A stretch of 54,855 nt of DNA from Deltaproteobacteria bacterium (GTDB lineage: Bacteria > Myxococcota_A > Polyangia > JAAYKL01), in contig JAFGQN010000113.1 in NCBI GenBank assembly GCA_016935665.1, positions 1-54,855 of the forward strand. Reading direction: 5' to 3'. Shown piece by piece: positions 21,231 to 48,540 of the stretch (position 1 is the stretch's first letter; each line of letters begins with the position of its first letter). The position numbers and the translations under genes are program-made. The notes beneath the pieces were generated by a model. It worked only from the letters and a program-made list of their open reading frames with translations, was not told where the DNA came from and did no database searches.

Positions 21231-21297
21231 GGGCGGATATGGGGCCGCCCCTTCATTGTTATCCTGGGCGGGCACGGGGACCCTCCCCTACATTGTT
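21231..21297 (-). repeat. Two tandem ACAATGTAGGGG-type repeat units between DUF6178 gene and uvrA
   Basis: Read on the minus strand, unit one begins AACAATGTAGGGGAGGG (21297 downwards). Unit two begins AACAATGAAGGGGCGG (21260 downwards). Each is GC-rich with GGGGC/GCCCC complementarity. A similar unit occurs at 30591. From memory such units form dispersed repeats in many bacterial genomes. The first unit overlaps the end of the upstream gene and supplies its stop codon. Confidence 0.6.
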
Positions 21298-23015
21298 AAA
21301 ATTGCACTGGATACGGCTTCGGATTCCAGTCTGTCTCTTCCTATCAGCAGCAGCCGAAGCAAAAGACGACGCAGCGGATGACGCTCATCTGCGGGAGACA
21401 AACTTCCCTCCTCCGGCACATTCAGTGGCAAAGTAAGCACTTTCAGCGAAGACACAAGCATCTCTTCGACGGGTTGATTTAAAAATGCACTCGTAAACTG
21501 TTCGGCATCCCTGGACGGGACCACATCCAGAGTGGCCTGTCCATCAACGTATGCATTGCACAGTGCAGTCAGTATCAGCGTTGACGGTTGAACCGGCTGA
21601 CTGGAGAATCCATCCCGCCACTCCAACTGCGCCAGCACAGTCAGCAGGGATTCCATTTCGTCCAGATATCGCGCCGCCTGGGATACCCGATTCGTGGTGG
21701 TAATAAACTCCAGCTCGTCGGGTAACGGTTCCACAATGGATGCGGACGCATACCCATCGTCGAGCATGGGCCACCATTTGGGAATAAAGGAACTGACGCA
21801 ATCCAGTACCACCTGCCAGGGCGTATCCAGCTGAATTGTCTGCAATACATCGCTGTACTGTAGTTTTTTTGCCCGCTCGCGCAACGGTATCACCAGTCCC
21901 ATGCCCACCTGAAGAATTTCTCCCGGAGTGAGATACGCCAATGCGGCGGCGCCTTCGTGGGGAGTTTCCGCAATGTCGGAAAGTCCGAGCGTTAAAATAT
22001 CCCTGGCGAGCACTGTTCCTTTGGAGATGGCGTCCAAATCCGCCAGATTGCATTTGATTCCCGTTAAAAAGAGACTGACCATGGCGCTCATTTCGGCTTG
22101 CAAAGTCGTCGCGCGTTCCTGCCATTTGGCGTCTTTGGCCCCCGAAAGCAGCGCAAAGGATTCGTCCAACAGTTCATTTCCACTCAGATGTTCCCGGTAT
22201 ATGGCAGGCACTGGAGATTCCAGATCCAGCGGATGCGGCATTTCCTTTTTGGCCATTTTTTCCTTTACGGCTTTAGTCGATCGTGGCGACAACAGGGCCA
22301 GACCTTCTTCGAAGGTGCCAAATCCCAAATCCGCCAGACGTGCGTTGCGCCAGCGAAGTGCGTCCTCCATCTGATCGAACTTCAGCTCGTGACGAATCGC
22401 CTCCAGCTCTTTTTGATAATATTCAAACGGCTTGAAAAGCATGGCGCGAATCAACTCTTTGATAACATCCGGGCACATCTCCGCATCCGGGATTTCGATG
22501 CCGTAATATCCATCTGGTGTTGTGATAAAATCCGACGTATCCAACACATCCGGGAAGTCTTCATCCTTTTCTTCCCGCAGATGCACGATGACGCGATTTT
22601 GCAGCATGAGCGTCCGCGTTTCGTCATTCAGTTTATCCAGCGCCCGAATGGCGCCACCGATGCCGGAATGCACCAGCGGAGATATAAATTCCTCCACCTT
22701 TTCCAGCTGCATCTCGTATCCATCCCAGCACGAAAAATCCACCATTTGCTCGAATTGCTCTTTGGATGCCAGTACAAGCAAATCCGTGCGCTGCTCATCA
22801 TCCGCCTCCGCCATGGCCAACAGCAGATCATGGGCCCCCAGTTCCTGGACCAGCGCCTGCGGCACATCCGCATGATGGAGTTTTTTTAAAAAAGCAATGG
22901 CTCCCTCTTTGGAACCAGGACTATCCGGCAATAAAATGTTTTTCTTTTCCATAAATGGTTTATCGGCAAACGCCCGGTTTAAGTCAAGAGGGTAGGTGAC
23001 CTGGTGCGTTACCAT
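21288..23015 (-). CDS. DUF6178-family protein of unknown function
   Basis: A 575-residue soluble protein with no signal or membrane segment. Conserved-looking blocks are [87 protein letters not shown] and [21 protein letters not shown] associate these with DUF6178, a family seen in delta-proteobacterial lineages; this is recall only. The helical, Glu/Leu-rich composition suggests an all-alpha fold. The gene ends ATT TTA ACA ATG TAG, where ACAATGTAG is the first part of a repeat unit, so the original C-terminus may have been altered. It may share a transcript with uvrA (98 bases downstream). It is divergent from the NamZ-type gene across only 56 bases. Confidence 0.8.
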
Positions 23016-23071: not shown

Positions 23072-24241
23072 ATGATTCAAACCGGATTGGACAACCTGCT
23101 CGCCAACCATGCACATCTCGTAAAGAATAGAAAAATCGGCATCGTGGCCCATCCGGCCAGCATCACCTGTCGGTTCACCCACATTCTGCCCGCGCTGCAG
23201 CGCATCGGCGCACACGTCACTGCGCTGTTTGGACCGGAGCACGGATTCGGCGGAGAGGCACAGGATATGGAACCGGTCGCCGCCCCTGTCAAAGGCCCCG
23301 GGGCCATCGATTTGTATAGCCTTTACGGCGCAACCGTCCAGAGTCTGTCCCCGTTAAAAGCGGCGGTGGCCGACCTGGATGCGCTGGTAGTCGATTTAAT
23401 GGACGTGGGAGCGCGATATTACACGTTTGTGTGGACGGCGGTGCTCTGTCTCGATGTCTGTCATCAAACGGGCACGCAACTGATAGTACTCGACAGACCC
23501 AACCCCATTTCCGGAACCACAGTGGAAGGCGCCCCTCAACTGGACGACTTTCTGTCGTTTGTGGGATTGCGTAAAGTACCGGTGCGCCACGGACTGACAG
23601 TGGCAGAAATTGTACGCATGGTGGCACGGCAGGAGGGGCATTCGGATGTGTTGACGATTGTCCCCATGAAGGGATGGCAGCGCCACATGTATTTTGACGA
23701 CACCGGCCTGCCCTGGGTGATGCCGTCCCCCAACATGCCATCGCTGAACACCGCCATTGTGTATCCGGGGCAATGTCTGCTGGAAGCCACCTGGTGTTCT
23801 GAAGGGCGCGGTACCACGTTGCCCTTTGAATATTTGGGCGCACCGGGGCTATCCGGCAGTGAACTGGCAGCCCATCTCAACCGCCAATCCCTCCCGGGCG
23901 TCTATTTCAGACCCGCGTCGTTCAAGCCCATGTTTCAAAAACACGCGGGACAGATTTGCAAAGGCGTGCAGGCACACATTACGGAACGGCATCGATTTTT
24001 GCCCTTCAAGACCGGAGTTGCGGTTCTCCTGGCACTAAAACAGACGGCGCCCGCCCAGTTTGCCTGGCGCACCGATCCGTACGAATTTATATCGGATATT
24101 CCTGCAATTGATCTGTTGTGTGGCAATGACCTGGTGCGTAAAGGCATCGACTCAAAGGCGTCGATCAACGACATTGCCGCCACATGGGAAGCGGGAGAAA
24201 AACATTTTTTGGAATTGAAATCGCAATTTCATCTTTATTGA
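23072..24241 (+). CDS. DUF1343 / NamZ-type exo-beta-N-acetylmuramidase
   Basis: A 389-residue protein of the DUF1343 (GH171, NamZ) family, whose characterised members remove terminal N-acetylmuramic acid from peptidoglycan fragments. Motifs include RKIGIVAHPASIT, LFGPEHGFGGEAQDME, DALVVDLMDVGARYYTFVWT, VLDRPNPISGTTVEG, RHGLTVAEIVRM, WVMPSPNMPSLNTAIVYPG and EGRGTTLPFEYLGAP. There is no obvious signal peptide, so it may act in cytoplasmic cell-wall recycling; many homologues are exported. No strong ribosome binding site precedes the ATG. It is followed after 100 bases by the NtrC-type regulator on the same strand. Confidence 0.92.
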   Translation: MIQTGLDNLLANHAHLVKNRKIGIVAHPASITCRFTHILPALQRIGAHVTALFGPEHGFGGEAQDMEPVAAPVKGPGAIDLYSLYGATVQSLSPLKAAVADLDALVVDLMDVGARYYTFVWTAVLCLDVCHQTGTQLIVLDRPNPISGTTVEGAPQLDDFLSFVGLRKVPVRHGLTVAEIVRMVARQEGHSDVLTIVPMKGWQRHMYFDDTGLPWVMPSPNMPSLNTAIVYPGQCLLEATWCSEGRGTTLPFEYLGAPGLSGSELAAHLNRQSLPGVYFRPASFKPMFQKHAGQICKGVQAHITERHRFLPFKTGVAVLLALKQTAPAQFAWRTDPYEFISDIPAIDLLCGNDLVRKGIDSKASINDIAATWEAGEKHFLELKSQFHLY

Positions 24242-27546: not shown

Positions 27547-29511
27547 TCAGTGGACAGGCCAATCGAAAATGCGCTGTTCGTCCGGTGTTTTCAAAACAAC
27601 GTTTTTCAGCTGTATCTCCCCTTCGGACTCCGACGGGAAAACGCGAAGCACTCGGGCTCGGGAGTCCATCTGAAGTAAAATACGGTACCGATGCCACAGG
27701 TTATCGTGGGTAGGCGCAAACGATATCGAGTGAGCGACTTCCCAGCGTATTTTATCATCATCCAGCCAAACGACTGCACCGTTTCCAGTGCCCGAAGACT
27801 TCAGCTCAAATTCCAGCCAATAATCTCCCTCGGACACATACGGGAAATACCGTGTTTCCAGGTATCCCCCACCTGCGAAGAACTGAACCACCGGCTCACC
27901 GTCGTCATACGACAATGTGGCGTCCGGAGAAATATGCCACAAACCAAAACCGTCTCCCCGATACCGTTTATTCCATTGGGGCAGCAAATATCCGGCTTCG
28001 ATTTCGCGCAGGGCCATGCTGTCACGCATTTTATCTGCAATATCCGCGTGCTCGGCGACCAGATTGACCTGCTCTCCAATATCATCATATGACAAATTGT
28101 ACAGTTCGTACCGATGCGTCCGCAATGGTCCGTCGTAATAAAACTTGTACATTCGCCAGGGGCCATCCCGCATGGCGAGATTTGCTCTGCTCCCCGTGGT
28201 TGCGAGATTCGCAGGAAAAAGTGAATACATGGGCGGCCTTTCGAACGATTGACCGTTAAGTGCCGGTACGTATGAAACGCCATCGGTGACATGTCGTGCC
28301 GGCATGGGAATCCCCAATAGCTCAAGGATCGAAACATAGTGATCCACAGATGATACCATCACATCTGACACCGTTCCTGGTGCAGTGACTCCTGGCGCGC
28401 GCACCATCATGGGCACCCGCACTCCGCCTTCATAGTTCACTCCTTTGCCCCCGCGCAGCGGATAATTGTTGGTCGCTGGTGCACCGTCGAAAATGTGGTA
28501 TGAATTTCCTCCGTTGTCCGAGGTAAATATCACAATCGTATTTTCATCCAATCCGAGTTCGGAGAGATGTGCGAGAAATCGCCCGATGTTGGCATCCATT
28601 GTTTCAATCATGGCAGCCATGGTTGGATTTCGCTGTATCTGGTCGGGAGTCTGCCTGCGCCTCGCTTGGTCAACCAAAGGCCACTTTGCCTGAAACGGTC
28701 CATGGACATCATAGTACCACAGACACAACAGAAATGGAGAATTGCGTTGCCGAGAAACAAAATCGATGGCCGCATCCGTCAATGCTTCGGCAATATGTGT
28801 CCCCGCCGGTGCACCAGGCAATGTATCGCCATCCCACGGTGCAAAGTAGTTTCCCGGCGGTGGCGGCCCCGCATAATCCCGCCCCCCCACAACAACGTCA
28901 AACCCCTGATTTTCGGGAATATGAGGCGCTTTTCCCAAATGCCATTTTCCCATGAACGCCGTCGTATATCCATTTTCTTTCAATACTTCCGCGAACGTTT
29001 CGTATTCATTCGGCAATCGCGTAAGCGACTCCGGGACGGCCGTTTTTTGCCATGGCTGAGTGGAAGTGCGTAGTTTGGGGTCCAGAATAATCTTGTCATC
29101 CGATTTCTCAACAATGGGCAGCGTCAGGCGCAGACGCCCGGGTTCCTGACCAATCAGAATGCTGGCCCGTGTGGGAGAACATAATGGACTGGCCGAGTAG
29201 GAATGCGTGAATCGCATTGCCGATTGGGCAAACTGGTCCAGCTGCGGCGTTTGGTAATAATCTGAACCATAGACGCCCAAATCGCGCCATCCCACGTCAT
29301 CGGCGAGAATAAAAACGACATTGGGAGGGCCCTCTCCACGCGTCACCTGAGTATGGTCATCAATCGGAAACGGCAGTACTTTTTCGCCACAACCGACACC
29401 AATCAAAAACAACAGGAGGAGCGGCAGATAATGAATGAGAGCCAATGTTAATCTGGATATCTCACATGCCATCCTGTTGAAAAAAAAATGCTTTAAGCCA
29501 TGCTCACTCAT
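27547..29511 (-). CDS. Sulfatase lipoprotein (arylsulfatase-type, formylglycine class)
   Basis: A 654-residue type I sulfatase. The lipoprotein signal ends LLLLFLIGVGC (Cys41 from the first ATG; a start at Met14 is equally possible). Catalytic features are VVFILADDVGW (metal-binding Asp pair), the formylglycine motif CSPTRAS with Cys111, FMGKWHLGK, and TSDNGGNSY, which supplies further metal ligands. Such enzymes remove sulfate esters from polysaccharides and need a formylglycine-generating enzyme, which is not in this window. The C-terminal ~120 residues after LLPQWNKRYR form a beta-rich extra domain (GDYWLEFELKSSGTGNGAVV) that could be carbohydrate-binding. It lies near a GH62-like gene, suggesting use of sulfated or decorated plant or algal glycans. 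Confidence 0.92.
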   Translation of the reverse strand: MSEHGLKHFFFNRMACEISRLTLALIHYLPLLLLFLIGVGCGEKVLPFPIDDHTQVTRGEGPPNVVFILADDVGWRDLGVYGSDYYQTPQLDQFAQSAMRFTHSYSASPLCSPTRASILIGQEPGRLRLTLPIVEKSDDKIILDPKLRTSTQPWQKTAVPESLTRLPNEYETFAEVLKENGYTTAFMGKWHLGKAPHIPENQGFDVVVGGRDYAGPPPPGNYFAPWDGDTLPGAPAGTHIAEALTDAAIDFVSRQRNSPFLLCLWYYDVHGPFQAKWPLVDQARRRQTPDQIQRNPTMAAMIETMDANIGRFLAHLSELGLDENTIVIFTSDNGGNSYHIFDGAPATNNYPLRGGKGVNYEGGVRVPMMVRAPGVTAPGTVSDVMVSSVDHYVSILELLGIPMPARHVTDGVSYVPALNGQSFERPPMYSLFPANLATTGSRANLAMRDGPWRMYKFYYDGPLRTHRYELYNLSYDDIGEQVNLVAEHADIADKMRDSMALREIEAGYLLPQWNKRYRGDGFGLWHISPDATLSYDDGEPVVQFFAGGGYLETRYFPYVSEGDYWLEFELKSSGTGNGAVVWLDDDKIRWEVAHSISFAPTHDNLWHRYRILLQMDSRARVLRVFPSESEGEIQLKNVVLKTPDEQRIFDWPVH

Positions 29512-29680
29512 ATGGCATCCACCGCCTTTTTTTAAAAGTACTTAAATCTCGCGTTCACCATTTCGCTTGAGAGACACGCTACATCATTATTGCGGATGAA
29601 GGCAATTCAATTGGCAATTGTAGTTGCACATGTTAAGGGTTCCGCAGTAGGAATCATCAATTTTGCCACAGGAGATGGCC

Positions 29681-30388
29681 ATGCGAATACCCAACGCATT
29701 ATTTCTTATTTTCCTGACGTTCTCACTCCCTGCGGCGGCGACCGCGGTTGGAGAGGGACGTGGCAATCCGCATGAGCAATCCGCACAACCACATATATTG
29801 CCCCAAAACGGTTTCAGTGCGTTTGGAGGCATCGGTACTGCCAACCTGATCACATCAGGCGATACCGGCAACGGTGTTGAAAAACCGCGGCCCCGCCTGG
29901 CAGGAATTGGACAGTTTCGCTACACACGTTTTGCCACGTCGCAACTTGGATTCAGCATCGGAGCCGGGATAACGGGCAAAGGGGCGAAACTGGAACAGAA
30001 AACAGACTACAACGCCGACTATAGTGTAAAACTGCAATCTCTGTTTCTGGAAATCCCGGCAGGTATTGTATTTTCCAAAGATCAGCTTCGTATCGGATTG
30101 GACGTGGTGACCAGTTTCCATCTACGAACGCAAACCGTTACCGAATATCGGGCAGAGAAAAAGACAGAAAAAGTCACAAAAGCATATTGGGACAATCACC
30201 GTCGTGTTTCGGTGGCGCCCGCTTTGTTCGCAGGATGGTATATGAGCGTATTCGATCGGTCGTCAGTGTTTGGTGCGTTTGTTTTTCAAATCGATATCTT
30301 TAACAACTTTAAACAGCAAACAACAAACAACTATTCTGAACGGTTCATGAATCTGATGTTCGTATGCGGTGTGGAAATCGGGCGGTGA
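29681..30388 (+). CDS. Small exported beta-rich envelope protein
   Basis: ATG 29681 is chosen because AGGAG lies five bases upstream and the product begins with signal peptide MRIPNALFLIFLTFSLPAAA. The product has 235 residues. After a Gly/Gln/His-rich segment the chain consists of alternating Gly/aromatic strands (FSAFGGIGTANLITSGD, QLGFSIGAGITGKGAKLEQ, KLQSLFLEIPAGIVF, LRIGLDVVTSFHLRTQTV) ending in VCGVEIGR. This suggests an eight-stranded outer-membrane barrel of the OmpA/PorT sort. No family name can be assigned. It is divergent from the sulfatase gene. Confidence 0.75.
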   Translation: MRIPNALFLIFLTFSLPAAATAVGEGRGNPHEQSAQPHILPQNGFSAFGGIGTANLITSGDTGNGVEKPRPRLAGIGQFRYTRFATSQLGFSIGAGITGKGAKLEQKTDYNADYSVKLQSLFLEIPAGIVFSKDQLRIGLDVVTSFHLRTQTVTEYRAEKKTEKVTKAYWDNHRRVSVAPALFAGWYMSVFDRSSVFGAFVFQIDIFNNFKQQTTNNYSERFMNLMFVCGVEIGR

Positions 30389-30402
30389 ATTATTTTTCAA
30401 AG

Positions 30403-30493
30403 TCCTTAAGGCCGAATAAACGTCATTTCCCCTTTACCTGCCTTCCAGCATAATTGTCGACTTTTCGTTCACCTTTGAGTTCATGTCCCCAAC
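30403..30493 (+). repeat. Dispersed intergenic repeat, copy 2
   Basis: It aligns with 15888-15977 over its whole length with one single-base gap. Shared blocks are TCCTTA, ATAAA, TACC, CAGCATAATT, TTCAC and AGTTCATG. It starts 15 bases after the stop of the preceding gene, a downstream placement like copy 1. Confidence 0.5.
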
Positions 30494-30590
30494 CCTTTCA
30501 AGGTGTTGAAAAGAGAGTATTTAATATGGAGAATACTTACGGTATTGTCCAACTTGTTACCACCATAGATTTTTTGGCACAGAGTAGCGA

Positions 30591-30628
30591 AACAATGTAG
30601 GGGCGGGAACGTGGAGGGGCGGAGGCGG
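30591..30628 (+). repeat. Single ACAATGTAGGGG-type repeat unit
   Basis: The unit begins AACAATGTAGGGGCGGG and continues with another AGGGGCGG block. The first 17 bases match the minus-strand unit starting at 21297 except for one base. Confidence 0.45.
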
Positions 30629-30838
30629 AATCAAAAAGTGTTCCCTGAGAACGAATCCGAAATAGTCCCAACTGACCGAGTCCCTCCGCGTCGTTTGAAA
30701 ACAGCTCTCAACCAGCTGAAAGCCACTTGTTTGTCCTAAACCTTTAACGCGCTCCACGGCTATGGTTCAAACGATTTTGTTTACTCTCGGCAAATCAATA
30801 TGTATACTGGTATCATTCATTAAATCTGGAGTAATGAA

Positions 30839-32149
30839 ATGAGAAAAACATTTTTTTTATGTGCGTTGAGCTGGTGTGTTTTATCCTGTGTCACAGACGA
30901 ATCGAGTGATCCTATGGATTCTTCCGCACTGGAAAGCGATAGTGTTACCAATTCAAATCCAGGTTCGGATATAAAAACAGATACCAGTGCAAATACCTTG
31001 GAGGGGACGGGATCAAACACAGCCCCGAATATTCAAATGGACTCGATTGTGGAAACAGCCTGGGACAGCGATTCGGATTCAAATACAGGCACAGATACCC
31101 ATGCAAATACAGCTACGGATGCAGACACCCAAAATAATGCCGATTCCGATACCAATATAAATACGGATACCAATACAGATACTCTCAGCAACACCGACTC
31201 CGATTCAGATTCAGATTCACATACAGCCGAAGATACAGCCACTGACAGCAATCCTGTCTGTGTATTGCCCGACGCCTTTCATTGGATGGATGAAGGGAAG
31301 CCTCTGGCTGAACCCCAAAACCGGTGGGTGTCTCTGTCTGATTTCTCGGCCTGCGCTTATGATGACCGGATGATGATGTATTCAACCTATCACGACAGTT
31401 CAGAGATTGGCATTCAGATGACGGTATTTTATGATTGGGATTCAATGGATTCAGCGGCACAGATTCCATTGCCATTTTACGGCGCAGCACCGAGCCTGAT
31501 GTATTTCGCTCCAAAACACATCTGGGTGCTCGCATATCATTATTGCTTAACCACGGAATCATTCTGCTACAGGACCTCTGCAGACCCCACCAATCCCAAT
31601 GGATGGTCCGATGAACAGGCGTTATTGACAGAAGACATCACCCATTCCGAATATGGTGCAGTGGACCCGGATATCATTTGTGATAATACGACCTGCTACC
31701 TGTTTTATACTGCCAATAACGATCATGTGTATCGCGCGTCCATGCCCATCGGCAGTTTTCCTGGCCTTTTCAGCGGTTCACAGGACATCCTGCACCATCA
31801 TGCATATTACGAAGCCGTGCAGGTCTATACAGTGCAGGGATTGGGCAAATACCTCATGCTGGTTGGCAATGATTCCAATCCGCGTTCCTATAATTATCTG
31901 ATGGCGGATGATTTGGGGGGGACATGGAATTTCATGGGGGACTTTGCCTCAGAACGGAATGCCATATTCCCCATCAAATGGACCTCCGAAATCGGCCATG
32001 GTGACATATTCCGCCAGAATCCCGATCAAACCCACACTATCGACGCCTGCAGCAAACTGCAATTTCTGTATAGCGGACGTGTTCCGCCATCTCCCTCGGC
32101 TTCATACCACCTTGCGTATCGCCCCGGCCTGCTAACCCAACACCCCTAA
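30839..32149 (+). CDS. GH62-like alpha-L-arabinofuranosidase lipoprotein
   Basis: The 436-residue product has a short lipoprotein signal (LCALSWCVLSC, Cys17) and a ~120-residue Ser/Asp/Thr/Asn linker. From FHWMDEGKPL (residue ~148) to LAYRPGLLT it follows glycoside hydrolase family 62. The path includes WVSLSDFS, APSLMYFAPKHIWVLAY, SADPTNPNGWS, AVDPDIICDNTTCYLFYTAN, YYEAVQVYTVQGLGKYL, GHGDIFR and QTHTIDACSKLQFLYSG. Candidate catalytic residues are Asp168 (base), Asp276 or Asp278 (pKa modulator) and Glu325 (acid), at the positions expected for GH62, so activity is plausible. The family removes arabinose side chains from arabinoxylan. Family assignment is from motif recall. Confidence 0.85.
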   Translation: MRKTFFLCALSWCVLSCVTDESSDPMDSSALESDSVTNSNPGSDIKTDTSANTLEGTGSNTAPNIQMDSIVETAWDSDSDSNTGTDTHANTATDADTQNNADSDTNINTDTNTDTLSNTDSDSDSDSHTAEDTATDSNPVCVLPDAFHWMDEGKPLAEPQNRWVSLSDFSACAYDDRMMMYSTYHDSSEIGIQMTVFYDWDSMDSAAQIPLPFYGAAPSLMYFAPKHIWVLAYHYCLTTESFCYRTSADPTNPNGWSDEQALLTEDITHSEYGAVDPDIICDNTTCYLFYTANNDHVYRASMPIGSFPGLFSGSQDILHHHAYYEAVQVYTVQGLGKYLMLVGNDSNPRSYNYLMADDLGGTWNFMGDFASERNAIFPIKWTSEIGHGDIFRQNPDQTHTIDACSKLQFLYSGRVPPSPSASYHLAYRPGLLTQHP

Positions 32150-32216: not shown

Positions 32217-33146
32217 TCATTTTCTTCCTTTCGCGCGCAATCGGATGGCTGGAACCTTTGACCAGTAACCATTCTCAGTGTTCCATGACAATCGCGCACG
32301 CGCTGCCCCTGTATGCTCGATATAATCCACACGGATTTTATAGATGCCAGGGCCAAAAATGCGTTCTGACTTTTTTTCCCTGAAACTGTGCGGGCCTTTA
32401 TTGGCAATGATCCGTTTGCCGTCGATAAAAAGCCAGATGCTGTCATCCGCCGCCACGGCAAACCGCTTTTTCTCCCCTTCTGCGATGCGCACATATCCTT
32501 CCCAGCGCACCGAAAAGTGATCGCGGCCAATGCCCTTCATGGGACGCCCATTTTTCCAGTCGAAATCAATGGTTTTGTCTATCTGTATTCGGTGTTTGCG
32601 TTTAAACGCACTGTCTTTGTAATAAAGGGCCGTCAATCCGTTATCGTCACCGGGCACTTCTTTGGCCACCAGAGCAGCTGAAGCAATGAGAACCACAGCA
32701 ACAAATGTGCTCACCACCAGTCGATAACCGCGAAACCAGTGCACTGGAAACCGAGTCGTCTTTTTTGCGGCGCACGCCAACTGCCAGAGGGCATCAACGC
32801 TCCTTGACATTGCGCGAATATGGCGACGCAACAACCCCGATTTAACCTCGGCACACCCCGTACTCAAATAGTGGTGGTACGCTGTCACCAATGCATCAAA
32901 CGATTTTGCGGAAATTGAACTTCGACTGGCAAGGAACTCCACGTCCAGAGTTGCCTGTCGGTTCCCATTTTCCGCGGCAAAAAAAACAAATGCATTCTGC
33001 ACGGCCATCCATCCGTTGTGAACAAACGGCAATACCAAAAAGCGCGCGCCTCGGCTGCCAAACGCTTTTTGGGCCTGCGCAAGCTCTCTTTGCGCTTTTT
33101 GCACCTCATTGAGAAACAAAGTACCGCCAGCAGTTACCATCCCCAT
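32217..33146 (-). CDS. Single-pass membrane protein with extracytoplasmic PA14-like domain (third gene of operon)
   Basis: The ATG at 33146 follows GAGGT and overlaps the upstream gene's end by 13 bases. The product has 309 residues. N-terminal ~145 residues are helical and presumably cytoplasmic. One membrane helix follows (VVSTFVAVVLIASAALVA, about 145-162), then a ~145-residue PA14-like beta domain: GLTALYYKDSAF, FDWKNGRPM, FSVRWEGYVRIAEGEKKRFA, DDSIWLFIDGKRII, GIYKIRVDYIEHTGAARARL. PA14 domains commonly bind glycans. The first gene of the operon has the same architecture, so the two are paralogues flanking a GT-C-like membrane enzyme. Confidence 0.82.
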   Translation of the reverse strand: MGMVTAGGTLFLNEVQKAQRELAQAQKAFGSRGARFLVLPFVHNGWMAVQNAFVFFAAENGNRQATLDVEFLASRSSISAKSFDALVTAYHHYLSTGCAEVKSGLLRRHIRAMSRSVDALWQLACAAKKTTRFPVHWFRGYRLVVSTFVAVVLIASAALVAKEVPGDDNGLTALYYKDSAFKRKHRIQIDKTIDFDWKNGRPMKGIGRDHFSVRWEGYVRIAEGEKKRFAVAADDSIWLFIDGKRIIANKGPHSFREKKSERIFGPGIYKIRVDYIEHTGAARARLSWNTENGYWSKVPAIRLRAKGRK

Positions 33147-34768
33147 GGTGACCTCGCTTTTTCAAACGCCTGACGGGTTTCCTCCGTAATAGGGTGCTTT
33201 TCAAGGAATTTGCGTGCCTCTTTGCGACGGCCGGCCCCAAGGTTGTCCCAAATCAATGCACGTTCATAAAACAGCGCCGCCTTCTGGTCCTCCCCCATCG
33301 CCTTCAACGCCCGGGGTAAACGAATGCCCTTGTTGCGGTGGTCATTTTTCCCACAGGTCTCAATCTCCTGTTCAATCCAGTACGCTTTAACTGCAGCCAT
33401 GGGATGAGCTTCGAATTGGGCTCTACCCAGTTTGTATGCGCACATTTTACAATTTGGAAAATGCGACAGACTGTACTCCCAATACTTGGCCGTCGTGTCG
33501 TATGCGGCGCACTGCCGAAAACACACCACTGCATGCCAGCCGATATACAATCCCAGCACCGCAACGGCCAGTGGCCTGCCCCACCTGTGAAAATGCACGT
33601 GAACCAGGCGCACAACAGAAACGACGGCCAAACTGAAGAACACCGTGGGAATCCACAAATAGCGAAATCCAAATGCCACAGCCCACTTAACGAATCCGAG
33701 TACTGGCCCCAGCGCCAGCCCAATACACAAAAAGGCCAGCAACGGAAGAGGCTCGCGATACTTTTTCCAAATCAGAATTGAGGCCAAAAACAGCAGCAGC
33801 AAAAAGGCCAGACTGGTTATCGGCATAAAATTGGTTATCATCACTTCGGATTGAGGCGGGATACCGAAATAGTATTCAACCTGAGGCATCGTTGCCCCAA
33901 CCGAAATCACAGTGGGTCCTGGAACAAATAAAGAATAAAAGTACTGACCGAGTTCACCGATGGCCATGGGAAGCTGATTCACAATTTGATCGGCAAAAGA
34001 CTCTTTCTTCAAGGCGCCATCGGCGAAGTTGGTGACTTTACCAGGTATCATCACCAGCCGTGCAATCACCGCCGCGGGCACGACTTTATCCAGCAATATG
34101 GATATACTGAACCGCCGACGTCGATAGAAATCGAAAAACAGCAGCATTGGCACTGCCACAACAAACGACGTTTTGTTAATGACCGCGGCGGCACAGCAAA
34201 GAATCGATACCCCATACCATAGGGCTTTTTGCTTCAGTGGCACGCTGCTCAAATACTTGTCCCACGTGATAAACGCGAGCAGCAAAAAGGGCATCCCGCC
34301 AAAGTGACATCGTGCACTTATCCACGCAACAATATCGGCGTTGATACAATGCACCGCAAACAGCGCTGTACTCCACAGTTGCCATTTGGAGGTGGCCAGA
34401 AAAAGTCTGGAAAAACGAAAAAAAATGACAATGGTCAGCATCAGCCAAAGCAGATTGAACACCACAAATCCCAGGTAACTCGCCGGAGTCAGATACCAGT
34501 TCAAAAAGAAGCTGATATACATGGGATTGGAGTTTTTCCGCTCGTAGTTGGTAGTCAACATTTCCTTTAATACGGATGGGTCCTGTTTGGTCACATCCTC
34601 GAACTGGGTAATCTGACCGCCATCGTCGTAGTTTGTAAAATAGCCCCACAGCAACGGCGCATGAACAATCAGTGCGAACAGGCATATCACGGTCACCCAT
34701 ACCACCGGGGGCACTGCCTGACACAGCTTTTCTGCGCGGGTGAAATACCTGCTAATGATGCGCCACAT
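33134..34768 (-). CDS. Polytopic GT-C / TMTC-like membrane glycosyltransferase candidate with helical C-terminus
   Basis: The ATG at 34768 has GGGA upstream and overlaps the preceding gene by 17 bases. The 544-residue product has about ten hydrophobic helices, starting with VVWVTVICLFALIVHAPLLW. Immediately after the first helix comes FTNYDDGGQITQF. An acidic Asp-Asp motif in the first external loop is typical of GT-C glycosyltransferases, including TMTC-type O-mannosyltransferases, which use lipid-phosphate sugars. The C-terminal ~120 residues (YWEYSLSHFPNCKMCAYKLG, ALKAMGEDQKAALFYERALI) resemble TPR helices, again as in TMTC proteins. It lies between two PA14-type membrane proteins. Glycosylation of envelope proteins is the proposed role, as inference; sugar and target are unknown. 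Confidence 0.78.
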   Translation of the reverse strand: MWRIISRYFTRAEKLCQAVPPVVWVTVICLFALIVHAPLLWGYFTNYDDGGQITQFEDVTKQDPSVLKEMLTTNYERKNSNPMYISFFLNWYLTPASYLGFVVFNLLWLMLTIVIFFRFSRLFLATSKWQLWSTALFAVHCINADIVAWISARCHFGGMPFLLLAFITWDKYLSSVPLKQKALWYGVSILCCAAAVINKTSFVVAVPMLLFFDFYRRRRFSISILLDKVVPAAVIARLVMIPGKVTNFADGALKKESFADQIVNQLPMAIGELGQYFYSLFVPGPTVISVGATMPQVEYYFGIPPQSEVMITNFMPITSLAFLLLLFLASILIWKKYREPLPLLAFLCIGLALGPVLGFVKWAVAFGFRYLWIPTVFFSLAVVSVVRLVHVHFHRWGRPLAVAVLGLYIGWHAVVCFRQCAAYDTTAKYWEYSLSHFPNCKMCAYKLGRAQFEAHPMAAVKAYWIEQEIETCGKNDHRNKGIRLPRALKAMGEDQKAALFYERALIWDNLGAGRRKEARKFLEKHPITEETRQAFEKARSPWGW

Positions 34769-35939
34769 TCTTTTTCCCGTTCTGCTTTGATTTGGATATT
34801 ATTTTCGAAAACGAGGGGCATTGATGGATATCATTCCCCCCCGGTGCAATCAGCGCATGATGAGATATGGCATACGGCTTTCCATTTTTCGGCTTCCAAC
34901 GCAGATGAATTTGCGCCGGCACACGATTTTGAGCGCTTTGAATTTCAATCGTGTGAACCCCAGGCGTCAGGGGCGCAGATATTTTTGAAACGAAAGACGT
35001 TTTCCCACTAAGTTTCGACTGCTGCGCCGCAACACCGCTCCCGGGCGCCAAATCGATGATCGTGGCACCATCCACAAGGACCCGCAAGTGGGTTTCGGTG
35101 GTTTCCGCCAGCAGCGACACATTTCCAGCCGGCACTTCAATGCAGCCCAGCCATTTCGACGAAAAATCACGATGTCTGCTGAATTTGACAGGTGGGCGAT
35201 CTATCCAGTCAAACTCGGTGGCATGGTCTGTCCACATGAAGGGATGCCCCTTGAACTCCGGCTTTTCGTAATGCGTGACAGCCAGCCCGTCTTTGGGACC
35301 TGGTCTCGAAAAATATTCACTGGCGCCCCAAATTATTACCGCAGCAAGGAATGCGAGCATTCCCAGTTGTGCCAGCATGGCACAGGCGCGCAGAATTCTT
35401 TCGGACAATTTCGCCCGATGCGTCCAACGCCACTTCCGGACGCGGACGATACCGTCACAGAGCCTGTCGTAGGCATCTTCCATCAGCGCATAGAATTCGC
35501 CGGATGCAAAATCCACTGAATCCAAAAGGTTCAGCCAGTTTAATTTGTCGGCCTGCCATCCATGAATTTGAGATAATGGACTCCCCTGTGCAAAAATGTT
35601 CACAGGCGCGGTGGCTTCCGCCGGTGGGGTGTCGGTTAATGACAACATGGCATGATGCAAATCCCGAAACGCGAATAGCATCAGCTCAACCGCAGTGGCT
35701 GTGACGGGAGCGCCATCTTCAAGATGTTTTTTCAAAACAAACGATTTCTCGACGGCGCATCGCAGATGACGCTGAAAATCACGCCGCTTTGGCCGCGATA
35801 AACCAGCTGCGAGACGCTTAAACAAGGCACGGCGCGCTGTTGTTGCCCCATTTTCCTCTGAACGCATTTTAGAGGTGTAGCCAGGAGATTGAATAGTATC
35901 TGATGGTGCGTTTGGAATCATCTGCATATGGAAATACAA
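34752..35939 (-). CDS. Single-pass membrane protein with extracytoplasmic PA14-like domain (first gene of operon)
   Basis: The frame opens with TTG 35939; in-frame ATGs at 35927, 35921 and 35864 are alternatives and none has a strong ribosome binding site. The product has up to 395 residues. The first ~200 are helical and basic (RRALFKRLAAGLSRPKRRDF, ELMLFAFRDLHHAMLSL). One membrane helix follows (LGMLAFLAAVIIWGASEYF), then a PA14-like domain: GLAVTHYEKPEFKGHPF, FDWIDRPPVKFSRHRDFSS, WLGCIEVPAGNVSLLAE, HLRVLVDGATIIDLAPGS, GVHTIEIQSAQNRVPAQI, HLRWKPKNGKP. It begins the operon with the GT-C-like gene. The PA14 core is recognisably related to the third gene's product. Confidence 0.78.
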   Translation of the reverse strand: MYFHMQMIPNAPSDTIQSPGYTSKMRSEENGATTARRALFKRLAAGLSRPKRRDFQRHLRCAVEKSFVLKKHLEDGAPVTATAVELMLFAFRDLHHAMLSLTDTPPAEATAPVNIFAQGSPLSQIHGWQADKLNWLNLLDSVDFASGEFYALMEDAYDRLCDGIVRVRKWRWTHRAKLSERILRACAMLAQLGMLAFLAAVIIWGASEYFSRPGPKDGLAVTHYEKPEFKGHPFMWTDHATEFDWIDRPPVKFSRHRDFSSKWLGCIEVPAGNVSLLAETTETHLRVLVDGATIIDLAPGSGVAAQQSKLSGKTSFVSKISAPLTPGVHTIEIQSAQNRVPAQIHLRWKPKNGKPYAISHHALIAPGGNDIHQCPSFSKIISKSKQNGKKNVAHH

Positions 35940-36144
35940 TTTGTGTGCCAGAATCAGTATCTACTTGTTTTCTCAACACATCCAGAGAATCATCTGGCAT
36001 AATTCAACCCTGACACTTCATCGTGAGGGTTGCAATAGCGACGTCACAAAATAAAAAGTCTTTTTTCAAGGACCCTTTTTTGGATGCCACTGCAATTGAG
36101 CACATACTGGAATTACAACTGAAATACAACAGGGAGAAGTGCAA

Positions 36145-37239
36145 ATGATAATTGGCGTGCCCAAAGAAGTGAAATCCGATGAATACCGAGTGGGATTACT
36201 CCCCGTCGGTGCAAAACTGCTGGTACAGGACGGACATACAGTTCTGATAGAAAAAAATGCTGGTTTGGGAAGTGGCTATCCGGACGAAGACTACCTCCGC
36301 GAGGGCGCGAGAGTTATTGATTCGCCCAAAGACATTTTTGGAGAGGCGGATCTGGTGGTCAAAGTGAAAGAGCCCCAGCCGGTTGAAATTCCACTGCTTC
36401 AGGATGGACAGATACTGTTTACGTACTTCCACTTTGCCAGCTCGCAAACACTCACTGAAGCGTGTCTCAACGCCGGGATTTCAGCTGTTGCATACGAAAC
36501 CCTTGAAGACGCGCGCGGGCAATTGCCACTGCTCACACCCATGAGTGAGGTTGCCGGCAAAATGAGCGTGCAGGAAGGGGCGCGCTGTCTGGAGAAACAT
36601 CGAGGGGGCCGTGGTATATTACTGGGAGGTGTCGCTGGCGTCAAACCCGCCAATGTATTGATACTCGGCGGCGGTGTTGTTGGAACCAATGCCGCATGGG
36701 TTGCCGCCGGCATGGGCGCCGCCGTCATTGTAATGGATGTTAATCTCGATAGATTGCGTCAATTGGAAGATATTATGCCTGCCAATGTGACCACGGTTTT
36801 TTCGGATCCCCATGCCATCGCATATCACAGCCGCTACGCAGACCTGGTCATTGGCGCCGTGTTGATTCCCGGTGGAAAGGCGCCGCGCCTGATAACCCAC
36901 GATATGTTGCGGGATATGAAAAACGGCGCCGTACTGGTGGACGTGGCCATTGACCAGGGGGGATGTTTCGAAACCAGTCGCCCCACCACCCATGGAGAAC
37001 CCACATATATTGAGGAAGGTGTTGTGCACTACTGTGTGGCCAATATTCCAGGCGCCGTCAGTCGTACCAGTGCTCAGGCACTATGCCACGCTACGCTGCC
37101 CTATTGCCGGGAGTTGGCAGCGGAGGGGCTGGACAAATTTCTGGGAAAATCATCGGGCTACAGAAAATCGCTGAATTTGCGCAGTGGTGAAATAACCCTG
37201 CCTGGCGTGGCCAAAGCGTTTCCCGACCTCTCGCGATAG
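36145..37239 (+). CDS. ald: Alanine dehydrogenase
   Basis: ATG 36145 follows AGGGAGA at proper spacing; a GTG two codons earlier is too close to it. The 364-residue length fits the family. The N-terminal domain has IGVPKEVKSDEYRVGL with Arg15, KVKEPQP with Lys75, and FTYFHFAS with His96, matching the substrate and catalytic residues of known alanine dehydrogenases position for position. The NAD-binding Rossmann motif is ILGGGVVGTNAAWVAAGMGA, followed by DVNLDRL, and later VDVAIDQGGCFETSRPTTH. The enzyme interconverts alanine and pyruvate plus ammonia with NAD in the cytoplasm. It stands alone, with a divergent neighbour upstream. Confidence 0.97.
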   Translation: MIIGVPKEVKSDEYRVGLLPVGAKLLVQDGHTVLIEKNAGLGSGYPDEDYLREGARVIDSPKDIFGEADLVVKVKEPQPVEIPLLQDGQILFTYFHFASSQTLTEACLNAGISAVAYETLEDARGQLPLLTPMSEVAGKMSVQEGARCLEKHRGGRGILLGGVAGVKPANVLILGGGVVGTNAAWVAAGMGAAVIVMDVNLDRLRQLEDIMPANVTTVFSDPHAIAYHSRYADLVIGAVLIPGGKAPRLITHDMLRDMKNGAVLVDVAIDQGGCFETSRPTTHGEPTYIEEGVVHYCVANIPGAVSRTSAQALCHATLPYCRELAAEGLDKFLGKSSGYRKSLNLRSGEITLPGVAKAFPDLSR

Positions 37240-38108: not shown

Positions 38109-39764
38109 TCAGAAAAGACCTTCTACGGGTAAAGGAGAAGCGTTTACACGATAATCAGATCCGAAATTTCCATTCCCCAGCTGACCATATTCATTGGACC
38201 CCCAGCATTTGGGTATATGGTCGCCTTTGACCAGAACGCAAGTGAAGTGAGCACCCGTTATTACTGTGTCAACGTTACTTAAGTCATGATTTTTCACAGG
38301 CAAATATTCGAAATCGTGATCAGGCGGCGCCCCCAATTGACCAGTACTGTTAACTCCCCAACAGGACAAATTGCTGCCATCGCTATCCTGTAATATACAT
38401 GTATGCCACTGTGACAGAGAAATTTGGGTAACGCCGGTTATTGAGGGAAGTTTATTAAACCATTTATAATCGTAACCAGAAGCATCTGGGTTCATGCCGA
38501 TTTGTCCGTACCTGTTATATCCCCAGCAGTAAACGTCTTTGTTGGTCAGTGCTGCACAGGCCTGGCCACCAGACATTCCCATATGTTCTATTGTATCGGG
38601 TAGTCCAAGAAGAATAGGATCCATGGATTGGTTTTCATCACATGAGGGTCCAAGTTGTCCTGTATGATTTCGTCCCCAGCAGCTTGCGGTATTGTCTTCG
38701 TGAATCACGCAATAACTGGCGTCTGATGCAAATATTTTTTTTGCATTCAAGACCTTTTCAGCTTCCCCGGGAGTATGTGAATATGTGCTGTCTGATGTAC
38801 TGAACCCGAGTTGAAAAAATGTGTTATCCCCCCAGCATTTTACTTTTTTGTCACTCAGGAGTGCACATACTGATGCGGCGCCAATCGCCAAATCAATGGC
38901 CTGTTCAATATCGCTGACAAGAACTGGAGTGCTGCTGGCTGGCAGGGAACCTGGGCCAACTCCAAGCTGACCGAACATGTTGTCTCCCCAGCATTTCACC
39001 TTTCCTTCGTCAACAATGGCGCAAGTGTGCTGGCCTGCCGGTGTCGACTTAATCATTGATACATTTGACAATTCCGACACTTGTTTAAAACCTGGACTAA
39101 ACTCTGATTTAAACTCGCTGCAACCAAGTTGCAATTTGTTATTTCGGCCCACACAATACACGGTGTCATTACTAAGGAGATAACAGATATGAAATTCTCC
39201 AGCCGCCATTTGTTTGACAAACAGGTCGCAGTCTTTATGGGGAGAGGCAGGATTATCTGTGTATCCGCCCCTGCAAGACTGTACGGCACACGTGCCCCTT
39301 ATGCAGGTTGCCTCTGCCATATTCGCGGGCAACGTATTGTGAAATTCGGGCCATAGTTCAACCATTTCTTCACAGTTGTTGGCACATGCGCCGCAATTCT
39401 TCACATTATCCAGGACGCAATTATTGGTGTCACTCGTATCGGCGGTATCACTCGTGTCGGCGGTATCACTCGTATCACCAGTATCGCTCGTGTCGGCGGT
39501 ATCGCTCGTATCACCAGTATCGTTCGTGTCGCTCGTGTCGGCGGTATCGCTCGTATCACCAGTATCGCTCGTGTCAATGCCGCCAGTTTCTGTTAGATGT
39601 TCCGTCCCTATTGAATCAGTGACATTATTCGAAGAAACTCTATTCTGTGTGTCAGTTTCAGAATCCATGGTTACAGATACTGGAGACAGACAGCCAAATA
39701 TCAGCAGCGTCAAACATATATAGGCAATGCCCAATTTGAAGGAGAATATTTCTTTGATCCTCAT
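38109..39764 (-). CDS. RCC1-repeat lipoprotein with (DTSDTADTSDT) linker
   Basis: Of several in-frame starts, ATG 39764 gives the best lipoprotein signal (FKLGIAYICLTLLIFGC). The product has 551 residues. A linker of perfect DTSDTADTSDTxDTGD units, about residues 50-115, is encoded by a tandem 9/18-base DNA repeat (about 39427-39580). Next comes a small Cys motif (NCGACANNCEE) common in Myxococcota lipoproteins. Seven RCC1-type blades follow, each with a core such as VKCWGDNMFGQLGVG, ASCWGRNHTGQLG, VYCWGYNRYGQIG or PKCWGSNEYGQLGNG. This makes a seven-bladed beta-propeller, presumably a surface-displayed binding module. The gene is divergent from the trypsin-like lipoprotein gene. Confidence 0.88.
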   Translation of the reverse strand: MRIKEIFSFKLGIAYICLTLLIFGCLSPVSVTMDSETDTQNRVSSNNVTDSIGTEHLTETGGIDTSDTGDTSDTADTSDTNDTGDTSDTADTSDTGDTSDTADTSDTADTSDTNNCVLDNVKNCGACANNCEEMVELWPEFHNTLPANMAEATCIRGTCAVQSCRGGYTDNPASPHKDCDLFVKQMAAGEFHICYLLSNDTVYCVGRNNKLQLGCSEFKSEFSPGFKQVSELSNVSMIKSTPAGQHTCAIVDEGKVKCWGDNMFGQLGVGPGSLPASSTPVLVSDIEQAIDLAIGAASVCALLSDKKVKCWGDNTFFQLGFSTSDSTYSHTPGEAEKVLNAKKIFASDASYCVIHEDNTASCWGRNHTGQLGPSCDENQSMDPILLGLPDTIEHMGMSGGQACAALTNKDVYCWGYNRYGQIGMNPDASGYDYKWFNKLPSITGVTQISLSQWHTCILQDSDGSNLSCWGVNSTGQLGAPPDHDFEYLPVKNHDLSNVDTVITGAHFTCVLVKGDHIPKCWGSNEYGQLGNGNFGSDYRVNASPLPVEGLF

Positions 39765-40298
39765 AATCATCTGTAATAACATAGCTTTAACTGTGGTACT
39801 CATTACGCCCTTCCCTGATATGCAAATACGTATAAAAAAATCGTCATTAGTACAGCTCGCAGTAATTTGTCACTGCTTTTTGAAAGCTTCTCATGATTTT
39901 GAAATCATAGACACATTTTACTTTAAATACCGGAAATACCGGAAAAAATTTTTGAACCATTTCGAACCATTTCTAAAAAGCCTTGTGTCACGTTAATTGT
40001 GTTCCAGATCACAGCAAGGTGTTACTTCAAATAGTAAAAGTTACAGAGTTTATCCCTTTCAAATAGTTGTGCCAAACATCTTGCGCTAAGAAAATTCCCA
40101 TAAAATCGCACAGTTATTCATAAAGGGGGACTGACGACATCTCAGTCGCACAGCTGGCATGTAAATCGCAAAAGATCTGCGTCAAGCGAAAAGCAAACCC
40201 TTTATCATTGTGTTTAATAAAATGAAATAGACTCAAAATTCGACCATTTTAAACGAGTCGCTACAAACGTAGCGCTTGTTTTGCTCAGGAGGTTAAAA
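39765..40298. other. Divergent promoter region between RCC1 and protease lipoprotein genes
   Basis: 534 AT-rich bases with no credible gene. It contains two tandem direct-repeat pairs (39927-39973) and, at its right end, the AGGAGG ribosome binding site of the protease gene (40287-40292). It must hold both promoters, but I cannot place them confidently. Confidence 0.5.
39927..39973. promoter_or_regulatory. Paired tandem direct repeats in a divergent promoter region
   Basis: ATACCGGAA occurs twice without a gap at 39927-39944. GAACCATTTC occurs twice without a gap at 39954-39973, nine bases further on. Two perfect adjacent duplications in a promoter spacer suggest protein-binding sites, though slippage duplications are possible. 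Confidence 0.35.
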
Positions 40299-46539: not shown

Positions 46540-46818
46540 CAACCGCCCGGTTTTCACGGCCCAAACAACGTAAAAATAGTCACCGCAGGTCTTTGTTTTT
46601 TCGAAGTAACCTGCAAAAAAAGCATAACGCAGGAGGACAAGATGTACAGAAATGGAGTCCTTAGGCATAATAGGAGCATGGCATTCACTTTTCCAGCCCG
46701 AAACAGTTTCCTTTCCCGATACGGTTTGCACCAGGCGTCATACTCAAGGAGAAACGCTTCTTTGAACTGGAATAAATTAATTTTGTCTCAAAAACAATCC
46801 CCAAAAAAAGGAGATTCC

Positions 46819-48540
46819 ATGAAACAGACAAGCTGGCTAATCTGCATTGGGACACTGGCCCTGCTGGCGGGAGCCGGATGCGGAGACGACGCGAACAATG
46901 GTGGCATTGGCGCCGACGACACGGACAGCGATTCCGAGAGTACCACCCAGCCATCGGCGTTGGATAGCGAAACGTCTTCTGCAACAGAAAAGGGAACAGA
47001 CGTTGGCACGGATACGTCGACTCTCTTTGACACCGCATCTGCGACGGAACCTGAAATCAGTTCGGATACAACCATCCGTACAGACACAAACACCGGTTCG
47101 GATTCACCATTCGATACCAGCAGCGCCGTCGATCCACCGGGGCCGGCCTGTACCTCACCTGTCTCCCTTCGCGATGTGAGTAATCCTGACGAAATCGTTG
47201 GAGATGGCACTGCGACAAGCTGCACCGAAGAAGCATTGCGAAGTGCGGTTCAAAACGGCGGCACCATCGTGTTCAACTGCGGTTCTGTTCCCAGCACCAT
47301 TTTCATAACGCAGACCATCGAGCTGCCCAATCATAAAACCACCGTTATCGACGGCGGTGGTTTAATCACGCTGGACGCTCAAAAGCGTACGCGCCATTTT
47401 TATTTCAATGAACCGGATTGGATGAACAATCCCGATGGCGTAGTGCTGCAGCGCCTCGCATTCCGCAACGGCAAGGCGCCCGCAACAGATTATCACGAAC
47501 AGGATACAGACAATCCAAATTGTGCGTACGGTTATGCTGACGGCTCCGGTGGCGTACTTTACGTACGCAATGGTGTGGTTCACATTGTCGATTGTGAATT
47601 TTACGACAACGAAGCAGCACTCATCGGGCCGGATGTGGGCGGCGGCGCCATTTATGTGGTGGGGGTACCGGAGCTCATCATTTCGGGGTCGGTATTTGTG
47701 GGAAACAAAGGCGCCAATGGCGGCGCAGTGGGAATGCTTTTTTGCGGCAATCCAGGCATTTACAACTCCCTGTTCGAAAACAACGCCGCCGTGGGCTTGG
47801 GACAAAACGGTTGCTGCGATACGGCATGCGTTGGCGTGGGCCACGAAAATCAAACCGGCGCCGGCGGCAACAGCGGCGCGGTTTACCTCGATGGTCTGAA
47901 CGATGAAGACAAAGTCTTTCATATCTGCGGCACCGTATTTCGCAACAACAGCGCCAATGAACTGGGTGGCGCGCTGTTTCGAACACCCAACTCGGGAGAC
48001 AGAGAAATGCACATCGACAACAGCGTGTTTGATGGCAATACAGCAGCACTCGGAGGCGTGTCGTTCATCAAAGACCATACCTTAACCGTGCGCAACACCA
48101 CCATCATGAACAACAGTGCCGATGCTATCGGTGGTCTGTGGGTAAATCAGGGCACTATGGATATTGAGAACTGCACAGTGTACAACAATCATCCCACCGG
48201 ACTCATCGTGGACAATCCCAGTTCAATCAAAAATTCAACCATTGTGGACTCGCCTCTGGACGGAAATTTCACGGTTACCAATTCGCTGTTTGTCGACATG
48301 GACTGCAACAGCGCGAAATCCGGCAGCGATAATCTGCAGTGGCCACAGGGAGATGCATGTGCAGAGGGAACCACATTCGCCGACCCGCAGCTGGGAGAGA
48401 TTGGCGACAACGGAGGATGCACACCCACATTTTTACCAGGAGACACCGTGCTTGGCATTGGCGCCGATTGCCCCGCCAAAGATCAGCGTGGCGAATCACG
48501 CTCAACCACATCCTGTGCCGCCGGTTCCGTCGAACCGTAG
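46819..48540 (+). CDS. Beta-helix lipoprotein (polymorphic outer-membrane-protein-like repeats), copy 1
   Basis: ATG 46819 is preceded by AAAGGAG; the frame opens 59 codons earlier without a signal. The product has 573 residues: lipobox LALLAGAGC, a Ser/Asp/Thr linker to about residue 110, then VGDGTATSCTEEALRSAVQN and GGTIVFNCG, which open a right-handed parallel beta-helix. Rungs such as GGVLYVRNGVVHIVDCEF, GGGAIYVVGVPELIISGSVF and GANGGAVG carry the GGAI/FxxN pattern of polymorphic outer-membrane repeats. It ends CPAKDQRGESRSTTSCAAGS, like the DQRG-type closing segments of such proteins. Likely a surface polysaccharide-binding or adhesive protein. A shorter paralogue lies at 49277. Confidence 0.86.
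   Translation: MKQTSWLICIGTLALLAGAGCGDDANNGGIGADDTDSDSESTTQPSALDSETSSATEKGTDVGTDTSTLFDTASATEPEISSDTTIRTDTNTGSDSPFDTSSAVDPPGPACTSPVSLRDVSNPDEIVGDGTATSCTEEALRSAVQNGGTIVFNCGSVPSTIFITQTIELPNHKTTVIDGGGLITLDAQKRTRHFYFNEPDWMNNPDGVVLQRLAFRNGKAPATDYHEQDTDNPNCAYGYADGSGGVLYVRNGVVHIVDCEFYDNEAALIGPDVGGGAIYVVGVPELIISGSVFVGNKGANGGAVGMLFCGNPGIYNSLFENNAAVGLGQNGCCDTACVGVGHENQTGAGGNSGAVYLDGLNDEDKVFHICGTVFRNNSANELGGALFRTPNSGDREMHIDNSVFDGNTAALGGVSFIKDHTLTVRNTTIMNNSADAIGGLWVNQGTMDIENCTVYNNHPTGLIVDNPSSIKNSTIVDSPLDGNFTVTNSLFVDMDCNSAKSGSDNLQWPQGDACAEGTTFADPQLGEIGDNGGCTPTFLPGDTVLGIGADCPAKDQRGESRSTTSCAAGSVEP

Follow-up and report, generated by a model that had tools for sequence, protein, structure and literature searches.

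What do two membrane-anchored PA14 proteins contribute to the polytopic membrane enzyme encoded between them? The question is raised by three overlapping genes, A, B and C, at positions 32217-35939 of a 54,855-nucleotide stretch of DNA from a deltaproteobacterium (contig JAFGQN010000113.1; this whole stretch is referred to here as the window). Genes A and C each encode a PA14 protein with a single membrane helix, and the gene between them, B, encodes a protein with the predicted fold of a GT-C glycosyltransferase. Here, structure prediction and comparison of gene order across related genomes revealed a well-supported pattern, in which PA14 proteins of this kind are conserved companions of GT-C genes. 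The module as a whole is probably best explained as a GT-C enzyme that would use a polyprenyl-phosphate sugar, together with PA14 subunits that would recognise or present its acceptor.

The central enzyme and its gene unit

An earlier note, made from the letters of this DNA alone, had read the locus as a three-gene operon whose members overlap by 17 and 13 bases, and its coordinates and overlaps were reproduced exactly. The minus strand carries the three open reading frames, first A (34752..35939, up to 395 aa), then B (33134..34768, 544 aa) and then C (32217..33146, 309 aa), with 17 bases shared by A and B and 13 by B and C; all positions given below for parts of these genes refer to that strand. 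The start of A is uncertain, as the listed TTG lies at 35939 and in-frame ATG codons occur at residues 5, 7 and 26. Since both flanking genes, encoding a GH62 protein (30839-32149) and alanine dehydrogenase (36139-37239), are on the plus strand, the unit consists of exactly three genes in an isolated run. Scanning for promoters and terminators gave counts only about twice those of shuffled sequences and no site of clear meaning. A defence function for the operon was considered and rejected, given that PADLOC returned no match.

B contains at least eight hydrophobic helices, with a YDD motif (D48 and D49) after the first of them. The protein matched no family in Pfam or NCBIfam, and none of the seven B-type members matched a named GT-C family in Pfam at E-values up to 10. 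An AlphaFold model of B, based on an alignment of 7 sequences, had a mean predicted local distance difference test (pLDDT) score of 72 and a predicted template modelling score (pTM) of 0.76. Structural comparison of this model with VIA-align revealed similarity to yeast oligosaccharyltransferase (OST; 8agb, Z 18.2), ALG12 (9s6t, Z 17.9), the protein O-mannosyltransferase (PMT) Pmt2 (6p25, Z 17.8), archaeal OST (Z 17.4) and ArnT (5f15, Z 15.6), these five aligning over 309-350 residues; taken together, the comparisons with OST, PMT, ALG12 and ArnT ran across 276-350 residues at Z 13-18. Down to Z 11.4, the matches were GT-C enzymes together with PIG-U of the glycosylphosphatidylinositol (GPI) transamidase, and a TPR protein appeared at Z 11.2. 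The best Foldseek matches were PglB, DPY19 and ArnT, with weak E-values, none of them below 0.001. The assignment of B as a membrane glycosyltransferase with a predicted GT-C fold is well supported, and the predicted structure agrees in this respect with what the earlier note had expected of the central protein.

The sequence motifs of B add to this picture. Human TMTC proteins share motifs that include a DD in the first loop, a Lys and a Glu in motif 4, and the Arg of an ERxxY motif; the Glu after the motif-4 Lys is their proposed metal ligand (PMC7801869). In B, D48-D49 (34622..34627) lie in the first external loop, at the catalytic Asp position of TMTC, PMT and ArnT enzymes, while K199 (34172..34174) takes the place of the Lys in the TMTC KET(Q)xxT motif and R369 (33662..33664) that of the Arg in ERxxY. 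The DD, Lys and Arg positions are all invariant in the alignment of the seven relatives. The Glu that follows the Lys is absent, its place being taken by Thr, Asn or Ser, and it is also missing in most of the bacterial relatives aligned. At the C-terminus, TPR-like helical repeats cover about residues 424-531 (33176..33499). The sequence of B itself stays under the Pfam thresholds for TPR; several of its relatives match Pfam TPR models, and the profile of the B family aligned with designed TPRs at E 1e-16 over profile positions 404-501. B thus has in common with TMTC1-4 and their bacterial TMTC-like relatives the GT-C fold, the first-loop DD, the Lys and Arg of the phosphate-binding positions and a C-terminal TPR region. 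It differs from them in its SARCH stretch (other bacterial relatives carry S-x-R-K-D or similar there), in the missing Glu, in the shortness of its TPR stretch and in the two co-encoded PA14 proteins. Because of the missing Glu, we file B as TMTC-like and do not call it a TMTC; judging by its sequence, it looks like an active, divergent enzyme of the GT-C type. The earlier proposal of a TMTC-like GT-C protein with a TPR tail is in this sense borne out by the model and its alignments, by the motifs and by the TPR profile.

The two PA14 partner proteins

Each partner has one hydrophobic helix and one PA14 domain. In Pfam, where the PA14 cut-off is 24 bits, C scored 79.9 bits and A, barely above the cut-off, 24.7 bits; both domains also came up when the genome was searched in all six frames. 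Many of the PA14 matches found in that genome lie within open frames of 600-700 aa. Over their length, A and C are only 17-18% identical, and they have a common architecture and belong to the same profile family. The AlphaFold model of C (mean pLDDT 89.9) consists of a cytoplasmic helical bundle (residues 6-128; 32763..33131), a single membrane helix (residues 143-161; 32664..32720; residues 135-163 in the model) and a PA14 domain (residues 169-293; 32268..32642) that forms a sandwich at about residues 168-305. In A, the membrane helix spans residues 185-203 (35331..35387), with a positive flank on its N-terminal side, and the PA14 domain spans residues 216-358 (34866..35294). Apart from PA14, neither Pfam nor NCBIfam gave a match beyond noise, and an assignment of the partner to a known regulator was rejected.

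By sequence, the solved PA14 structure nearest to C is the PA14 pair of RsgI3 (6qe7; E 5.3e-32), which is also the closest in fold (Z 21.4), followed in fold by the sugar-bound PA14 domains of RTX adhesins, including MpPA14 (Z about 15.5). An Asp-Asp pair is common in PA14 domains generally, and C carries it as D234-D235 (32442..32447); A has Thr-Glu-Thr at that place. In the adhesins, a cis-bonded Asp-Asp pair (D-cis-D) holds calcium, which in turn holds the sugar (PMC6650083). C resembles the adhesin lectins MhPA14 and MpPA14 in fold and has its Asp-Asp pair at the corresponding motif; these lectins are parts of secreted adhesins, unlike A and C, which are encoded beside an enzyme.

Two regularities suggest that the PA14 domain lies outside the cytoplasm. 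The charge on the N-terminal side of the membrane helix is positive in 27 of the 27 partners examined, so that the N-terminus is probably inside and the PA14 domain outside. Moreover, a pair of cysteines, one in W-x-x-C and one in a C-terminal CP/DPC, recurs at fixed positions beyond the helix in 25 of the 27 aligned partners, which have no further cysteine there, and both are gone in the remaining two, namely the window's C and the C protein of a congener. This joint loss points to a disulfide between the two cysteines and hence to a periplasmic or surface location. Since A keeps both family cysteines and lacks the Asp-Asp pair, and C shows the opposite combination, the two proteins appear from their sequences to have become specialised. 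The earlier note had given the partners a helical cytoplasmic N-terminus, one membrane helix and an external PA14-like domain; this architecture is supported, with PA14 domains closest to those that bind sugar.

Gene order in related genomes

Separate searches of 59 related genomes, one for relatives of B and one for relatives of C, landed at the same places. The exact trio is present in three genomes from two genera, namely the window's own genome (G000), a congener (G002) and a member of another genus of the same family (G004), where it is split over two contigs whose ends share 99 bases exactly. The trio is thus kept together in relatives, as the earlier reading of a dedicated unit had anticipated. 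It is missing in the congener G001 and in most of the family, and among 318 genomes of the class window-type B is confined to four (G000, G002, G004 and G006, the last from the same family). Duos of one PA14 gene and one B gene were found twice each in G004 and G006, in tandem in G006. A pattern search of a genome collection, which needs a SARCH or YDD stretch and may omit the window's genome, returned only three metagenome-assembled genomes of Deltaproteobacteria or Myxococcota. The trio B proteins form one clade (100/99), as do the trio A proteins (99/97), and these two clades are most simply explained by joint inheritance of the three genes. The trio C proteins fall on one side of a branch that separates them from A and the single partners (98/96); the placement of the C protein from G004 with respect to partners from a second family, described next as f7, is not firm. 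The exact trio is a minority arrangement, and what is conserved more widely is a pair of one GT-C enzyme and one PA14 protein.

This wider unit became apparent when the class was searched with the PA14 partners alone, which gave full-length matches in f7. The f7 genomes mostly measure 4-13 Mb and, with their high GC at third positions, might belong to Polyangiaceae. Twenty stretches were fetched by their PA14 match alone, and their GT-C neighbours were then scored with a separate f7 GT-C profile. In 20 of 21 cases, the f7 PA14 partner comes after a GT-C gene that shares its strand, and most of these genes overlap by 1, 4 or 8 bases (at L123, L133 and L138, the open reading frame starts were called too early and the overlap figures are not meaningful). 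The loci come from 8 genera, six of them from a single genus and therefore not independent. The enzymes themselves carry DE where B has DD; that of L132, scanned on its own, lies above the Pfam PMT_2 cut-off (39.6 bits vs 26.1) and that of L136 just below it (24.9). A profile built only from window-type enzymes matched none of the f7 enzymes, and the B profile gave no significant alignment with the f7 GT-C profile (probability 1.7, from shallow alignments). We treat the two sets as different GT-C types, with remote homology neither shown nor excluded by the profiles. The cytoplasmic domains of the two partner sets, in contrast, match each other even without the PA14 domain (hhalign probability 95%, E 1.8e-8). 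The PA14 partner family is therefore associated with GT-C enzymes of two types.

The arrangement of the unit varies among these loci. L122 contains two tandem GT-C/PA14 pairs, and at L128 the GT-C gene is followed by two PA14 genes in a row, the first without the Asp-Asp pair, like A. A third PA14 partner of L122 (15921-17165), with its cysteine pair kept, stands alone near the tandem pairs on the opposite strand. At L129 (86-1942) and L130 (5107-6948), the PA14 gene is followed by a second, different GT-C-like gene with an ADE motif, so that the order is GT-C/PA14/GT-C. At L141 (6340-11038), a weaker PA14 homologue overlaps a gene for a sulfatase/LtaS-like membrane protein, which is followed by one for a multi-helix membrane protein, as judged by eye.

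Neighbouring genes also bear on the sugar donor. In G002, a GT2 gene resembling polyprenyl-phosphate-sugar synthases lies upstream and overlaps the start of the trio, and a 49% identical homologue is found elsewhere in the window's genome. GT2 genes adjoin the f7 pairs at L122 and L139, and the L128 module lies between genes for uridine diphosphate (UDP)-glucose pyrophosphorylase and dehydrogenase. These GT2 and UDP-sugar neighbours are consistent with a polyprenyl-phosphate-sugar donor.

The role of the PA14 proteins and the choice of acceptor

In the mechanism that we favour, B would take one sugar from a polyprenyl-phosphate carrier on the outer side of the inner membrane and transfer it to an extracytoplasmic acceptor. 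The PA14 proteins A and C would be dedicated accessory subunits of B, in which the cytoplasmic bundle and membrane helix position a lectin-like PA14 domain beside the external face of the enzyme. There, PA14 may recognise or present the acceptor, possibly a glycan-bearing one, or the growing product, much in the way proposed for the MIR domains of PMTs. The parallel with PMTs extends to the GT-C fold and to an accessory domain, rich in beta structure, that lies on the product side, although here this domain is PA14 and is carried by a second protein, which crosses the membrane once and has a cytoplasmic part. The fold of B is likewise shared by ArnT and other PMT_2 enzymes, and an f7 partner enzyme exceeds the PMT_2 cut-off; we know of no PA14 partner for these enzymes. 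As to the acceptor, our first guess would be a cell-surface protein and our second an envelope polysaccharide or lipid.

Several observations weigh against this mechanism. B lacks the Glu after the motif-4 Lys, the confidence of its model is moderate (with a pLDDT of 72 from 7 sequences), and Foldseek taken alone gave no match below 0.001. Not all PA14 domains bind sugar, A is without the Asp-Asp pair, and PA14 is common here, with 29 matches in the window's genome. Three PA14 homologues have no adjoining GT-C gene, namely the third L122 copy and the weaker ones of L140 and L141, which are from other families. The GT2 neighbours are not constant, and since the B and f7 GT-C profiles do not align, one shared acceptor cannot be assumed.

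Given that RsgI3 has the nearest PA14 domain and the same topology, the main rival to a subunit role is that A and C would, like this anti-sigma factor, sense carbohydrates across the membrane, with PA14 outside and a signalling domain inside, and regulate the glycosyltransferase or other genes. RsgI3 is a single-pass protein with the same order from inside to outside (cytoplasmic domain, one helix, external PA14), the cytoplasmic bundle of A and C is, in keeping with such a role, a separate conserved domain, and PMC4711584 describes the sensing of biomass by RsgI. Yet no Pfam, NCBIfam or anti-sigma match was obtained in the N-terminal part of A or C, the RsgI N-terminal domain included, and no sigma-I gene adjoins the trio. 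A and C also differ from RsgI3-type proteins in having a single PA14 domain and, as a family, a conserved cysteine pair. Among the scanned neighbours, genes for sigma factors or regulators do not recur, and the constant neighbour is a GT-C enzyme; for these two reasons we favour a subunit over a sensor, which we consider unlikely. Constant pairing and gene overlap would equally suit an enzyme with a dedicated acceptor, and A and C might then be substrates of B that, once glycosylated, act as surface adhesins. Some partners do carry Pro/Ser/Thr-rich C-terminal tails, but C and most f7 partners are without them, the short stalk is not rich in Ser or Thr, and a mere acceptor would not need a conserved cytoplasmic bundle, which makes this role less probable again than that of a sensor.

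A closer competitor departs from the favoured mechanism in the acceptor only: B may modify an envelope polysaccharide or lipid, in the manner of ArnT or GtrS, with PA14 gripping the polymer. The fold of B is comparably close to ArnT and to enzymes that use lipid-linked sugars, the nearest PA14 domains are binders of polysaccharides or sugars, and the UDP-glucose genes around the L128 module would fit such a product. The C-terminal TPR region and the DD-type motifs, on the other hand, are those of the TMTC protein O-mannosyltransferases, and on balance we regard a polysaccharide or lipid acceptor as a serious but somewhat doubtful alternative. Far less probable, and the least so of the readings considered, is glycosylation of the abundant Thr/Asp-rich lipoprotein linkers, which the earlier note had put forward as substrates. 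Such linkers are real: long Thr-Asp and Ser-Asp linkers occur in lipoproteins or surface proteins encoded in the window at 13825-15735, 30839-32149, 38109-39803 and 46642-48540. When matches to a TDTDTDTD-coding pattern were counted per genome in 14 family members, the numbers ranged from 0 to about 2,270 (G007), with about 1,750 in G003 and 106 in G000. Their abundance does not track window-type B: G007, G003, G012, G013 and G001 are without it and nevertheless have more matches than G000 and G006, which have it. The linkers are therefore unlikely to be the reason for the operon, and we rejected them as its dedicated substrate.

Elsewhere in the window, a sulfatase gene and the gene for the GH62 arabinofuranosidase, a lipoprotein, lie on the 3' side of the operon (27547-32149), and this neighbourhood may serve polysaccharide degradation. 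Further away are a gene for a NamZ-type exo-N-acetylmuramidase (23072-24241) and one for a UvrA-like ABC protein with UvrA interaction and DNA-binding domains (18356-21190), which adjoins a DUF6178 gene (21288-23015).

Searches of the open-access literature for PA14 together with GT-C enzymes or protein O-mannosyltransferases yielded no relevant paper, and those on myxobacterial glycosylation gave no description of a glycosylation system in Myxococcota, in line with the earlier impression that no system of this composition had been described. Beyond a few well-known cases, we know of no acceptors or partners for bacterial GT-C enzymes, most of which are annotated by fold alone. Our broader proposal, which we offer tentatively and at slightly under an even chance, is that these membrane-anchored PA14 proteins, stabilised by a disulfide, make up a family not described before and serve bacterial GT-C enzymes generally as the subunit that recognises the acceptor. 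The family would have been paired with two GT-C types in two bacterial families and, in some lineages, would have given rise by duplication to specialised pairs. A lectin-like subunit accompanying a GT-C enzyme would provide a handle on the choice of acceptor and a candidate bait for the acceptor itself, and a PA14 domain with two cysteines next to a GT-C gene would serve as a sequence signature for finding glycosylation systems in Myxococcota.

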